From positions 62,001 through 126,000 of the forward strand of contig NZ_JAUZDX010000004.1 of assembly GCF_030704685.1 (NCBI RefSeq): a stretch of DNA of 64,000 bases. The letters run 5' to 3'. Source of the stretch: Acidovorax sp. A1169. GTDB lineage: Bacteria > Pseudomonadota > Gammaproteobacteria > Burkholderiales > Burkholderiaceae_C. This document shows, one piece after another, positions 36,571-44,544 of the stretch (position 1 is its first letter; each line of letters starts with the position of its first letter). Below the pieces are notes generated by a model, which was not told the origin of the DNA, ran no database searches, and saw only the letters and a program-made list of their open reading frames with translations. A program made the translations under genes and the position numbers.

Positions 36571-37641
36571 TCACCCCGGCTGCGCCACGAAGGCATCGGC
36601 AAAGAACGCCATGGGCCGCATGCCGGCCTGTGCCGCAAAGTCGCGCCGCGCGGCGTCCACCATGGCCGGCGCACCACAGGCATACACTTCGTGCTGCGAC
36701 AGGTCCGCATGGTCCTGCAGCACGGCCTGGTGCACCCAGCCGGTGCGGCCGGCCCAGGCATCGGCAGCCGGCGCATCCGACAGCACGGGCACATAGCTCA
36801 GGCGGCCCTGCAGAGCCTGCTCCCACTCCAGGCACAGGCTGTGCAGATACAGGTCGGCCCGCGCACGGCCGCCCCAGTACAGGTGCACGCGGCGTTCGCT
36901 GCCGGTGGCCAGCAGTTGCTCCACCAGGGCCTTCACAGGTGCAAAGCCAGTCCCGCTGGCCAGCAGGATGGCCGGCGCCTGCGATGCGCCATCGTGCATG
37001 CCGAATGTGCCGAACGGCCCCTCGATGCGCAGCACGTCACGGGCTTTCAGCTTGCAGAACACCTGGTCGGTGAACAGCCCGCCCGGCAGGTGGCGGATGT
37101 GCAGCTCCAGCAGTTCCTGCCCCTCACGGGCCAGCGTGGCCAGTGAGTAGCTGCGCCGGCGCTTGCCGGGCAGCAGCACGTCCACATACTGGCCTGCGGC
37201 GTAGTGCAGGCGCTGGCCTGCCGGGGGCTGCAGCTGCACACGCATCACGTCGTGCGCCAGGCGCTCCATCGCCACCACGCGCACCGGCAGCTTGCGCACG
37301 GCGATGCCCGGGATGTGCGGGATCTCGGTGCATTCGATATGCAGCGGGCTCGCGGCCTGGGTGCAGCACAGCAGGTGCATGCCCTGCCCGGCTTCCTCCG
37401 GTGACAGTGCGGCAGGCTGCGCATCTGGCAGGCACACGGCCTCGCCATGCACCACACGGGCGCGGCAGGCGCCGCAGGTGCCGGTCTTGCACTGGTGCGG
37501 CAGCAGGATGCCCTGGCGCAGCGCGGCGTCGAGCACGCTTTCGCCCGCCGTGCTGGAGAAGGTCTTGCCGGACGGCAGCAAGGTGATGGCGTGCATGGGC
37601 GCGTCGGCCACGGCTGCGCCGGCCTCTTCGGTCATCTGCAT
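36571..37641 (-). CDS. Ferredoxin-NAD(P)H reductase with 2Fe-2S domain
   Basis: A 356-residue electron-transfer flavoprotein. The plant-type [2Fe-2S] ligands are C51, C56, C59 and C92 or C93; the FAD motif is RRSYSLAT near residue 165 and the nicotinamide region is LLASGTGFAPV. This domain order (2Fe-2S, FAD, NAD) matches class III dioxygenase reductases such as that of naphthalene dioxygenase. It is the last gene of the nine-gene operon, separated from the Rieske ferredoxin gene by the whole Liv transporter. It would pass electrons from NAD(P)H to that ferredoxin. Confidence 0.9.
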   Translation of the reverse strand: MQMTEEAGAAVADAPMHAITLLPSGKTFSSTAGESVLDAALRQGILLPHQCKTGTCGACRARVVHGEAVCLPDAQPAALSPEEAGQGMHLLCCTQAASPLHIECTEIPHIPGIAVRKLPVRVVAMERLAHDVMRVQLQPPAGQRLHYAAGQYVDVLLPGKRRRSYSLATLAREGQELLELHIRHLPGGLFTDQVFCKLKARDVLRIEGPFGTFGMHDGASQAPAILLASGTGFAPVKALVEQLLATGSERRVHLYWGGRARADLYLHSLCLEWEQALQGRLSYVPVLSDAPAADAWAGRTGWVHQAVLQDHADLSQHEVYACGAPAMVDAARRDFAAQAGMRPMAFFADAFVAQPG

Positions 37642-37659
37642 GGGGAAACCTTTAAGGGT

Positions 37660-38379
37660 CTAGACGGTGAGGTAGCGCGACCACAGGCTGCGGTCGGCAT
37701 TGAGCGCGGCGGAATCGCCCTGCCAGACCACGCGGCCGCGCTCCAGGATCACGTGGCGGTCGGCCAGTCCCACCAGGCGGTGCACGTACTTGTCGACCAC
37801 CAGAATGGTCTGCCCGGCGGCCTTGAGCGTGGCCAGACAGCGCCAGATCTCCTCGCGGATGACAGGGGCCAGGCCCTCGGTGGCCTCGTCCAGGATGAGC
37901 AGGCGCGGGTTGGTCGACAGCGCCCGGCCGATGGCCAGCATCTGCTGCTCGCCACCCGAGAGCTGGTTGCCCAGGTGGTTCTGGCGTTCCTTGAGGCGCG
38001 GGAACACGCCGTAGATGCGCGCCAGGTCCCAGGCATCGCGCAGGCCATTGCGGTTGTCGGCAAAGGCCAGCAGGTGCTCGCGCACCGTGAGGTTGGGAAA
38101 CACGTGGCGCCCCTCGGGCACGATGGCCAGGCCCAGGCGGGCGATGGCGTCGCTCTTGAGGCGATCGGTGGCCTGCCCCGCGAAGCGGATGCCTCCGGCC
38201 GTGGGGCGCAACGCGCCCACCAGGGTCTTGATGGTGGTGCTCTTGCCCATGCCGTTGCGGCCGAGCAGGGACACCACCTCGCCTGCAGCGATATCGAGGT
38301 CGATGCCGAAAAGCACCTGGCTCACGCCGTAGCCGGCCTCCAGGCCCTGGCAGCTCAGCAAGGGTTCGGGGGCGCTCAT
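37660..38379 (-). CDS. livF: Liv-type ABC transporter ATP-binding protein LivF
   Basis: A 239-residue ATPase with Walker A LLGRNGMGKSTT, signature LSGGEQQMLAIGRAL and Walker B LLILDEATEG, typical of LivF. Its start overlaps the stop of the LivG gene by 4 bases. With LivG, LivH, LivM and the receptor it forms a HAAT-family importer. These systems carry branched-chain amino acids but many carry aromatic acids; the operon context favours the latter. Confidence 0.94.
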   Translation of the reverse strand: MSAPEPLLSCQGLEAGYGVSQVLFGIDLDIAAGEVVSLLGRNGMGKSTTIKTLVGALRPTAGGIRFAGQATDRLKSDAIARLGLAIVPEGRHVFPNLTVREHLLAFADNRNGLRDAWDLARIYGVFPRLKERQNHLGNQLSGGEQQMLAIGRALSTNPRLLILDEATEGLAPVIREEIWRCLATLKAAGQTILVVDKYVHRLVGLADRHVILERGRVVWQGDSAALNADRSLWSRYLTV

Positions 38380-42713: not shown

Positions 42714-43250
42714 TCAGATGGGGGTGGCAAGCAAGGTGGCCACGCGCGAGGTGTCGTACACCACGCGCTTGCTGCGGTAGCGCCATTCGCCTTCGTGCAG
42801 CACCACCTCGTCGAGGTAGGTGCCGGCCTGGTACACGCTCGAATCGCCAGCCGTGCCGGTGATCACCACCACGTAGCTCGACTGCGTGTGCACCACGCCG
42901 TCCTTCACGGCCGTGATCACCAGCCCCGAGGTGCCGTGGCGGTACACGTGGTCCTCGAAGATGTTGGCGTTGCGCAGGGAGAGCACGCGGTCGCGCAGCA
43001 TGCCGGCATTGCGGCAGTACATGATGGGTGCGGGAAAGCCTGCGTCGAAGTTCTCCTTGGGGATGATTTCGTAGCGGCCTTCCTCGACGAAGAAGCCGGG
43101 CCACTCTTCGAGCCGGTTGTTGTCCAGCGCGCTCACGTAGCGGTGCTGCAGCTCCAGCAGTTCGGTCCACAGCTGCAGGCGCTCCTGGCGGCTGATGCCG
43201 ATGGGGGCGATGGGGGCGGTGGGGGCGATGGGGGGTGTCATCGTGGTCAT
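42714..43250 (-). CDS. Ring-hydroxylating dioxygenase beta subunit
   Basis: A 178-residue SnoaL-fold structural subunit (residues about 20-178) of a Rieske dioxygenase. Landmarks are YVSALDNNRLEEWPGFFVEEGRYEI and a conserved central FEDHVYRHGTSGLVI. The first 17 residues are a Pro/Ile/Ala repeat (PPIAPTAPIAPIG) encoded by short GGGGGCGAT-like DNA repeats, which looks like slippage expansion. It follows the alpha subunit gene by 13 bases. It pairs with alpha in an alpha3beta3 hexamer. Confidence 0.92.
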   Translation of the reverse strand: MTTMTPPIAPTAPIAPIGISRQERLQLWTELLELQHRYVSALDNNRLEEWPGFFVEEGRYEIIPKENFDAGFPAPIMYCRNAGMLRDRVLSLRNANIFEDHVYRHGTSGLVITAVKDGVVHTQSSYVVVITGTAGDSSVYQAGTYLDEVVLHEGEWRYRSKRVVYDTSRVATLLATPI

Positions 43251-43263
43251 GGTGTGCGGTGCC

Positions 43264-44544
43264 TCAGTAGCCCATCAGTGCCTGGTAGCCCACCCAGAAG
43301 CGGCGGATCAGGTTCTCGGTGATCACGGTGTCCATCTGCTCGGGCGCTTCGCGCGCCATGGCGATGTAGGAGTGCTTGTCGCCGTCGCGCGCCGTACCGC
43401 GCTGCACCAGCTCGGTGGCCTCGGTGTCTTCCATCGAGATGTAGCCCGCAGGCCCCACCAGGTTGGCCTGCAGCATGCGCAGTTCGCGCAGCTCGGGGGT
43501 GTCGTCGGCATAGCCGAAGAAATGGAACACCAGCTCGAAGTTGCCCGGCCCCTTGGGCAGCAGCTGGCGCGCCACCAGCGTGTTGTGGATCTGCTGCACC
43601 ACCAGCTGCGGAAAGATCGGCTGGATGTGGTTGGTGGTCATCTCGTCGAACTCCTGGATCTGGCCCAGCAGTGCAGGCTCTTCGAGTTCGAAGCCTTCGT
43701 CCATGGAGCGGATGTTCTGCGCGCTGTAGGCCGCAGCGGTGTCCGTTTCCACCTCGGGCTTGGTCACGGTGATGATGCTGTGCAGGCCATGGTTCGCATC
43801 CGGGATGGAGCGCGCCTTCATCCCCACGCGGAAGATGTTGAAGGTGGTGTGGAACAGGTGCAGCAGGCTGGCGTGGTAGGGGTCCTTGACGTTCTCGAAG
43901 TACAGCTTCCAGTTCGACTTGGAGAACTGGCGCGTGCAGCCCAGGTACTCGATGGGCTTGTGGAAGATGCGGTCGATCCACGGGCGCATCTGCTCGCCCA
44001 GGTACTCAGGCAGCGGCGGCGTCTCGTCGCTGAAGGTGGCGAACAGCAGGCCCTTGTAGCTGTCCACGCGCAGCTTCTGCAGGCCGTGCTCTTCGGTCTT
44101 GAAATCCTTGGGCATGCCGACCATGCCCTTCTGGCCACGGCGAAACGGCACGCCCTGCAGGTCGCCGTTGGCGGCAAAGCTCCACTGGTGGTACACGCAG
44201 GTGTGGCTGGCGGCATTGCCGCGCTTTTCGCGGCAGACCATGGCGCCCCGGTGCGCGCAGCGGTTGACCCAGCAGGCCAGCCCCTCGGCCGTGCGCGTAA
44301 CGACTACAGGGGTGTCGCCGACGAAGGTGGACTTGAAATCACCCACGTTCGGGATCTCGGCCTCCAGCCCCAGAAAGCTCCACACCGGGCCGCGGAAGAT
44401 GCGCTCCTGCTCGCGCTCGTACACCTCCTGCGAGCTGAACACCCGGTAGGGCACGCTGGAGCCATCGGGCTGCGGAAAATGCACCTGCCGCTGCGCCTTG
44501 AGCGAGACGGGCGGCGCAACAGCGACAACGGTGGTTTCGGACAT
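43264..44544 (-). CDS. Ring-hydroxylating dioxygenase alpha subunit (AndAc-like)
   Basis: A 426-residue catalytic subunit. The N-terminal Rieske centre uses C96, H98, C116 and H119 (CAHRGAM, CVYHQWSF). The catalytic domain carries the mononuclear-iron motif ENVKDPYHASLLH, with D221 as bridging Asp and H224, H229 as ligands; an acidic segment FGYADDTPE near residue 360 supplies the third ligand. The sequence looks like the anthranilate/salicylate AndAc branch, but the substrate is not proven. ATG at 44544 has an AGAGG site upstream; a TTG six bases earlier is less likely. First gene of the operon. Confidence 0.93.
   Translation of the reverse strand: MSETTVVAVAPPVSLKAQRQVHFPQPDGSSVPYRVFSSQEVYEREQERIFRGPVWSFLGLEAEIPNVGDFKSTFVGDTPVVVTRTAEGLACWVNRCAHRGAMVCREKRGNAASHTCVYHQWSFAANGDLQGVPFRRGQKGMVGMPKDFKTEEHGLQKLRVDSYKGLLFATFSDETPPLPEYLGEQMRPWIDRIFHKPIEYLGCTRQFSKSNWKLYFENVKDPYHASLLHLFHTTFNIFRVGMKARSIPDANHGLHSIITVTKPEVETDTAAAYSAQNIRSMDEGFELEEPALLGQIQEFDEMTTNHIQPIFPQLVVQQIHNTLVARQLLPKGPGNFELVFHFFGYADDTPELRELRMLQANLVGPAGYISMEDTEATELVQRGTARDGDKHSYIAMAREAPEQMDTVITENLIRRFWVGYQALMGY

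Follow-up and report, generated by a model that had tools for sequence, protein, structure and literature searches.

A stretch of 64,000 nucleotides from Acidovorax sp. A1169 (contig NZ_JAUZDX010000004.1, positions 62,001 to 126,000; hereafter the window) carries nine closely spaced genes in which the components of a Rieske oxygenase of the anthranilate dioxygenase (AndA) kind stand together with a complete ABC importer of the Liv family. Judged by sequence comparison, this is likely to be an AndA-type operon for anthranilate catabolism, where the proteins for uptake and for the first attack on the substrate would be produced as a single unit. The proposed activator, of the AraC type and probably sensing anthranilate or a close relative, would bind a pair of half-sites before the gene for the oxygenase alpha subunit and drive transcription of all nine genes; the importer would then take up anthranilate, while electrons would pass from NADH through an FNRN-type reductase and a Rieske ferredoxin to the AndAc/AndAd oxygenase. 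The latter would convert anthranilate to catechol, releasing CO2 and ammonia, and the ring would be opened by the products of cat genes located elsewhere in the genome.

Organization and distribution of the operon

The nine genes all lie on the minus strand, from 44544 down to 36571, in the order alpha subunit, beta subunit, Rieske ferredoxin, periplasmic receptor, livH, livM, livG, livF and reductase, and each of the nine assignments is backed by Pfam. From alpha to reductase, the intergenic distances are 13, 11, 64, 37, 6, -4, -4 and 18 bases; the order, the coordinates and the tight spacing (gaps of at most 64 bases, or 4-base overlaps) described in a first-pass annotation of this DNA were thus reproduced. 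The genome holding the window is 6.8 Mb in size; among the best 80 of 234 relatives in named genomes, Acidovorax sp. Root219 comes closest at this locus, with 98% for alpha.

Layout was typed in 94 loci: 80 from named genomes, 10 from a family sample, three from a genus search and the window itself, the remaining loci of the family and genus samples being on the same contigs as named loci. The family sample comprised 399 genomes, 43 of which had matches with E values of 1e-100 or lower, and in 17 of these the alpha subunit was at least 74% identical. In all 17 the Liv set is inside the operon: it follows the ferredoxin in 15 of them, beta in L123 and the reductase AndAa in L119. In the genus sample such an alpha was present in 10 of 47 genomes, at 92% or more; the Liv genes were found in all ten, and the reductase follows them in seven, the others being L007, L144 and L146.

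Across the typed loci, a GR-type AndAa lies beside the ferredoxin in 54 of 94, and AndAa followed by Liv was observed once (L119). Liv without a reductase behind it accounts for 17, and an FNRN reductase downstream of Liv for 10; it follows directly in nine, and in L013 two other genes, one of them on the opposite strand, are placed between. The ferredoxin is fused to a reductase in four loci, and fused and then followed by Liv in one (L063, Herbaspirillum); one locus (L018) has the ferredoxin followed by an FNRN reductase without Liv, two (L074 and L075) gave neither a ferredoxin nor an AndAa or FNRN match, and four are interrupted by contig ends. Because the block from alpha through beta, ferredoxin and receptor to H-M-G-F is also present in other genera, the layout is more than chance: it is real, it recurs within one family, and it combines known parts in a new way. 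Two loci showed local irregularities: the And-Liv operon of L123 gave no ferredoxin gene in the interval from beta to receptor, and in L145 livF is split into two BLAST pieces.

The reductase and the origin of the arrangement

The reductase of the window consists of an N-terminal plant-type 2Fe-2S domain followed by FAD and NAD domains, a make-up that corresponds to the FNRN type (PMC2358900; this and the other papers are cited for the parts of their text that were available). In Burkholderia cepacia (L038), AndAa contains Pyr_redox_2 and Reductase_C domains and is taken here as GR type; the operon's reductase is not of that kind. This domain content and the NCBI models agree with the first-pass description of the set as a hybrid, with an AndAc-like alpha and a non-AndAa reductase. 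The same annotation had placed the importer between the ferredoxin and "its" reductase; the order holds in the window, whereas the possessive goes further than the order does, as, of the 27 loci that have Liv after ferredoxin or beta and could be read on the 3' side, 17 show no reductase after Liv, and in one more (L013) the two intervening genes separate them.

These 17 loci, and in Acidovorax three operons of ten (L007, L144 and L146), would suit a different and rather unlikely explanation, in which the 3' reductase is not the working donor and a shared FNRN reductase encoded elsewhere serves the ferredoxin, leaving the operon copy redundant. A reductase homologue is indeed present in 246 of 250 sampled family genomes, and the genome of the window has a second one elsewhere, 46% identical. 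Because of the Acidovorax operons that lack it and of this near-universal homologue, the reductase is dispensable in place, and a housekeeping homologue may explain how reductase-less operons work. Against redundancy, the operon copies separate from the housekeeping ones in the trees, with moderate support, and relatives fused to a Rieske ferredoxin occur in five loci, so that the operon copies look dedicated. We keep the reading in which the 3' reductase would serve the ferredoxin of its own operon. And-operon reductases from different genera form one group, with support of 94/99 (16 rows) or an SH-aLRT of 87 when the long-branched L018 is left out (15 rows), which is moderate, as neither value earns the star of the tree tool. 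This grouping makes the partnership of reductase and oxygenase look older than their separation by Liv. A reductase freshly copied from an Acidovorax housekeeping gene is unlikely, since operon copies of different genera cluster together with the same moderate support.

How the importer came to lie between the two genes is suggested by the relatives. Five of them encode a ferredoxin-reductase fusion whose reductase part belongs to the clade of the window's reductase, and in L018, on its long branch, ferredoxin and reductase are adjacent with no Liv between them; insertion of Liv between ferredoxin and reductase is therefore plausible, relocation of the reductase being a possible alternative. 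The first-pass proposal of an importer inserted into or recruited to the operon stands in this respect, but not as one event: the recurrence of the layout in several genera rules out a single accidental insertion. Liv can also come after the reductase (L063 and L119). The Liv tree unites 34 rows in a clade with 100/100 support, which contains the family's And-linked sets plus a few that are solo or linked to formamidase genes; outside it are five sets linked to CoA (coenzyme A) ligase genes, a second oxygenase-linked pair (L224 and L225) and Herbaspirillum L063, whose placement is unsure on a long branch. The alpha and Liv trees conflict on Curvibacter, L077 and L119 and, because of this disagreement, Liv and oxygenase cassettes have probably been exchanged.

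Other electron-supply genes were observed in this survey. A Rieske ferredoxin domain is fused to FAD and NAD reductase domains in L028 (11755-12822), L063 (11771-12850) and L084 (11760-12842), and a domain scan found no plant-type 2Fe-2S domain in these three proteins. In L074, a reductase with a C-terminal 2Fe-2S domain (11822-12808) is the next reading frame after the AndAc-type oxygenase, where no ferredoxin was found. A reductase homologue in L184 (G039 contig C57), at 76% identity, is interrupted by one in-frame stop, and the And contig of that genome (L010/L114) ends shortly past livF.

Family and active site of the oxygenase

Alpha, beta and ferredoxin score above the NCBI cut-offs for AndAc, AndAd and AndAb, the ferredoxin by a narrow margin (154.2 vs 150), and the alphas of all eight other loci picked to span the layouts also pass the AndAc cut-off. 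The two-component AntABC type was unmatched (alpha 88.5 bits, TIGR03228 cut-off 671.9). Among solved structures, alpha is closest to terephthalate dioxygenase and salicylate 5-hydroxylase. Alignment to the former reveals the Rieske motif and, as iron ligands, H224, H229 and D373, together with R326 and I307; these last five residues are invariant in 94 of 94 alphas. In PMC9060491, where AndAc is also discussed, the arginine equivalent to R326 grips the aryl carboxylate, while N224, S243 and R390 hold the second carboxylate in terephthalate dioxygenase; the latter positions are F238, I257 and V407 in the alpha of the window. The predicted active site thus fits a mono-carboxylate such as anthranilate, without singling anthranilate out.

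Contig C15 of the genome holds cat-type genes, with catB passing its model and catC named by eye, and cat-type genes (clusters c10, c12 and c13, also named by eye) lie near several And operons. A plasmid search, kept outside the locus counts, returned 17 records at 60-80% identity, and six of the 60 matches listed bear the name andAc.

The importer and its probable cargo

The importer has the composition of the Liv/HAAT family: a Peripla_BP_6 receptor, two BPD_transp_2 permeases and two ABC_tran ATPases. Its receptor is not of the branched-chain type described by the PRK15404 model (50.6 bits vs 477). The best solved relative is 4evq/4evr, which we take to be benzoate-type ligand complexes; the structure search itself displays no ligand.

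Receptor matches at E 1e-75 or better were obtained in 75 of the 250 family genomes searched. Among 30 receptor loci with flanks, window included, nine adjoin And genes, 17 a CoA ligase (sorted by at least 76% identity to the ligase of L215) and two an arylformamidase-like alpha/beta hydrolase, while two adjoin none of these. Five of the 17 ligase-type clusters were read at 20 kb (L214, L215, L216, L222 and L223). In four of them (L214, L215, L216 and L223), the Liv set comes after a flavoprotein of about 780 amino acids and genes assigned by eye to a short-chain dehydrogenase (SDR), MarR, an enoyl-CoA hydratase, an acyl-CoA dehydrogenase and the ligase. In L215 the flavoprotein passes NF006101 and the next genes encode an arylformamidase and a kynureninase, both above cut-off; L214 has kynureninase and cyclase-type domains at the same place, and kynurenine genes (kynB/kynU) thus adjoin two of the five clusters. 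Anthranilate is a breakdown product of tryptophan and indole, and because kynureninase produces it from kynurenine, we read the ligase-type clusters as 2-aminobenzoyl-CoA routes, with the NCBI name of the flavoprotein keeping salicylate in play. With receptors of this kind both beside And genes and beside ligase/kynurenine-type clusters, two chemically unlike anthranilate routes seem to share one importer family. This is the best evidence for the cargo, and the receptor probably binds anthranilate; the same neighbours lend support to the first-pass suggestion of an importer tied to the oxygenase substrate.

In the available text of a 2020 paper (PMC7778614), the authors knew of no specific anthranilate transporter, and a literature search on anthranilate transport, with most subscription journals outside its coverage, added no further statement on one. 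Several of the Rhodopseudomonas palustris ABC receptors that bind aromatic acids are of the branched-chain class (PMC3223731). A Liv importer was also observed directly after the alpha and beta genes of a different Rieske oxygenase in L224 (6272-12754) and L225.

A number of observations weigh against anthranilate import and oxidation as one unit. The NCBI name of NF006101 is salicylyl-CoA 5-hydroxylase/oxidoreductase, leaving salicylate possible, and the ligase of L215 falls just under the benzoate-CoA ligase family cut-off (357 vs 375). Structures named for branched-chain amino acids (4gnr and 3td9) match the receptor too, more weakly. The catA on contig C15 is below its own model (356 vs 392), the regulator upstream of alpha (AraC1) scores 132 bits on the NCBIfam AndR model, whose cut-off is 350, and in 17 related operons with Liv no reductase follows it. 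Finally, the scan of named genomes covers the best 80 of 234 relatives.

Part of this evidence would suit an operon for the import and attack of a plain or a different ortho-substituted benzoate (salicylate or a substituted anthranilate, for instance), in which case AndAc would be only the name of the nearest neighbour. The solved relatives of alpha point in the same direction, as do the salicylyl-CoA name in the sister Liv cluster and the receptor RPA0668 of R. palustris, which binds benzoate, 4-hydroxybenzoate and salicylate (PMC3223731). We consider such a substrate improbable, given that alpha is above the AndAc equivalog cut-off, that kynureninase and arylformamidase genes lie by two of the five sister clusters and that cat-type genes, by eye, are found near several And operons. 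An ordinary branched-chain amino acid importer placed by accident, as Liv family membership and the weaker matches to branched-chain-named structures might suggest, is highly improbable in view of the PRK15404 score (50.6 vs 477) and of the presence of Liv in the operon in all 17 family genomes that have a close AndAc.

Proposed regulation and transcription unit

In the likely anthranilate operon, AraC1 lies on the same strand directly upstream of alpha, as it does in the Acidovorax loci mapped. When 12 upstream regions were aligned, two conserved blocks, the candidate halves of an AraC operator, stood out clearly in the ten rows from Acidovorax and less so in the two from Rhodoferax; the distal block, TGCAAGAACCGGACAG, and the proximal one, TGCCGATACTGGATAGC, are direct repeats 31 bases apart (Table 1). 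An exact copy of each half-site occurs once in the window, before alpha only. The proximal half-site has two further matches with three mismatches elsewhere in the window, and a search of the window found no imperfect match before the receptor or reductase genes. The presence of half-sites before alpha and their absence before receptor and reductase favours a single regulated promoter, before alpha, from which all nine genes would be transcribed together. Between ferredoxin and receptor, a pattern scan for an internal promoter or terminator did not find a promoter and returned 6 terminators, against 6.0 in shuffled sequences.

Table 1. Features of the operon and its surroundings, in window coordinates.
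Feature	Position	Strand	Basis or remark
Oxygenase alpha, AndAc-type, 426 amino acids, ATG start	43264-44544	-	NF041684 823.7 bits, cut-off 750
Oxygenase beta, AndAd-type	42714-43250	-	NF041685 250.2 bits, cut-off 230
Rieske ferredoxin, AndAb-type	42355-42702	-	NF041683 154.2 bits, cut-off 150
Periplasmic receptor of Liv/HAAT importer, putative anthranilate binder	41085-42290	-	Peripla_BP_6
LivH-type permease	40127-41047	-	BPD_transp_2
LivM-type permease	39131-40120	-	BPD_transp_2
LivG-type ATPase	38376-39134	-	ABC_tran + BCA_ABC_TP_C
LivF-type ATPase	37660-38379	-	ABC_tran
FNRN-type reductase	36571-37641	-	Fer2 (N-terminal 2Fe-2S), FAD_binding_6, NAD_binding_1
AraC1, AraC-family regulator, presumed operon activator	44741-45745	-	AraC_binding_2 + HTH_18
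Candidate AraC operator, distal half	44632-44647	-	Kept upstream of alpha in related loci
Candidate AraC operator, proximal half	44600-44616	-	Direct repeat of distal half, 31 bases on
AraC2, AraC-family, convergent with operon	35520-36563	+	AraC_binding_2 + HTH_18 (longer open reading frame); start from coding model
Short-chain dehydrogenase (SDR)	34472-35272	-	adh_short_C2; relatives in module elsewhere
FMO-like flavin mono-oxygenase	32915-34459	-	PF00743
Dienelactone-hydrolase/SnoaL two-domain protein (DLH-SnoaL)	31654-32874	-	PF01738 + PF12680

Comparison with known systems

The anthranilate 1,2-dioxygenase operon of Burkholderia cepacia DBO1 runs AndAc-Ad-Ab-Aa. The window shares with it the families and order of alpha, beta and ferredoxin and an AraC-type regulator next door, but has an FNRN reductase for the GR-type AndAa, a five-gene Liv importer before that reductase, and a regulator under the AndR cut-off.

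The hbaEFGHI genes of R. palustris (receptor RPA0668), located between the bad and hba operons, encode an ABC importer for aromatic acids (PMC3223731). Both importers are of the branched-chain type and placed with aromatic-acid genes; however, that of R. palustris stands beside benzoate/4-hydroxybenzoate genes, while that of the window is inside a dioxygenase operon and probably serves anthranilate. The Liv sets of the five CoA-ligase clusters read at 20 kb have receptors 56-61% identical to that of the window and the same order H-M-G-F, and kynurenine genes are adjacent in two; these Liv sets probably feed a CoA-thioester route rather than a dioxygenase. Type III ring-hydroxylating oxygenases such as NagG (PMC2358900) also combine a 2Fe-2S ferredoxin with an FNRN reductase, whereas the alpha of the window is an AndAc, paired with a GR-type reductase in 55 of 94 typed loci.

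The locus offers five genes and a purifiable receptor as a testable candidate anthranilate importer, and a sister Liv group in another pathway is available for comparison. Furthermore, alphas at least 74% identical occur with five electron supplies (GR, FNRN, fused, C-terminal 2Fe-2S without ferredoxin, and none in the operon), a variety that amounts to a natural experiment on how freely reductases are exchanged among Rieske oxygenases.

Downstream genes and a possible link to indole

Downstream of the operon lies the convergent AraC2, followed by the SDR, FMO and DLH-SnoaL genes. AraC2, SDR and FMO follow And in five of the ten Acidovorax loci, and FMO, SDR and DLH are near And in L018, L025, L028 and L048. 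In L248 and L251, relatives of the SDR (66% and 77%) and of the DLH protein (71% and 82%) are accompanied by an AraC gene and by genes for a flavin reductase and a styrene-mono-oxygenase type protein, L248 additionally holding a MetA-type porin. With the exception of DLH, this set matches the published indole cluster of SDR, styrene-mono-oxygenase type oxygenase, flavin reductase, MetA protein and AraC (PMC9871250); further sources on the indole pathway are PMC12538310 and PMC6221969, the latter describing indigo formation in E. coli by an FMO. The segment 31654-36563 of the window itself resembles an indole-to-anthranilate module, with the FMO replacing the two-component oxygenase.

From the likeness of L248 and L251 to the published cluster, it is a reasonable guess that the FMO, SDR and DLH-SnoaL genes would feed the operon with anthranilate from indole. 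A wider reading, which we find doubtful, would see in the Liv set the first recognised importer dedicated to anthranilate, common to two unlike routes, and in the whole island, AraC2 included, an indole-to-catechol line, where a one-component FMO stands for the usual two-component indole mono-oxygenase and DLH-SnoaL for IifA.

DLH-SnoaL was ruled out as a marker of the island of the window only, being present in 23 of 300 genomes of the order. In 19 of its loci, with short flanks, the SDR of the module was seen in one and a different Rieske oxygenase in another. Four were read wider: two have the SDR (66% and 77%), and two (L249 and L250, DLH-SnoaL relatives at about 75%) are in or beside CoA-ligase type clusters, L249 also having a 49% receptor and another Rieske oxygenase.

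Elsewhere in the genome of the window, a second oxygenase operon (L130, 4213-10635; G000 contig C11) includes a GR-type reductase with similarity to AndAa, a cupin and, by eye, FAH and GST genes; it is perhaps a gentisate route. Within the window, a tRNA triplet for Asp, Glu and Ala is present two times in succession at 7046-7744.

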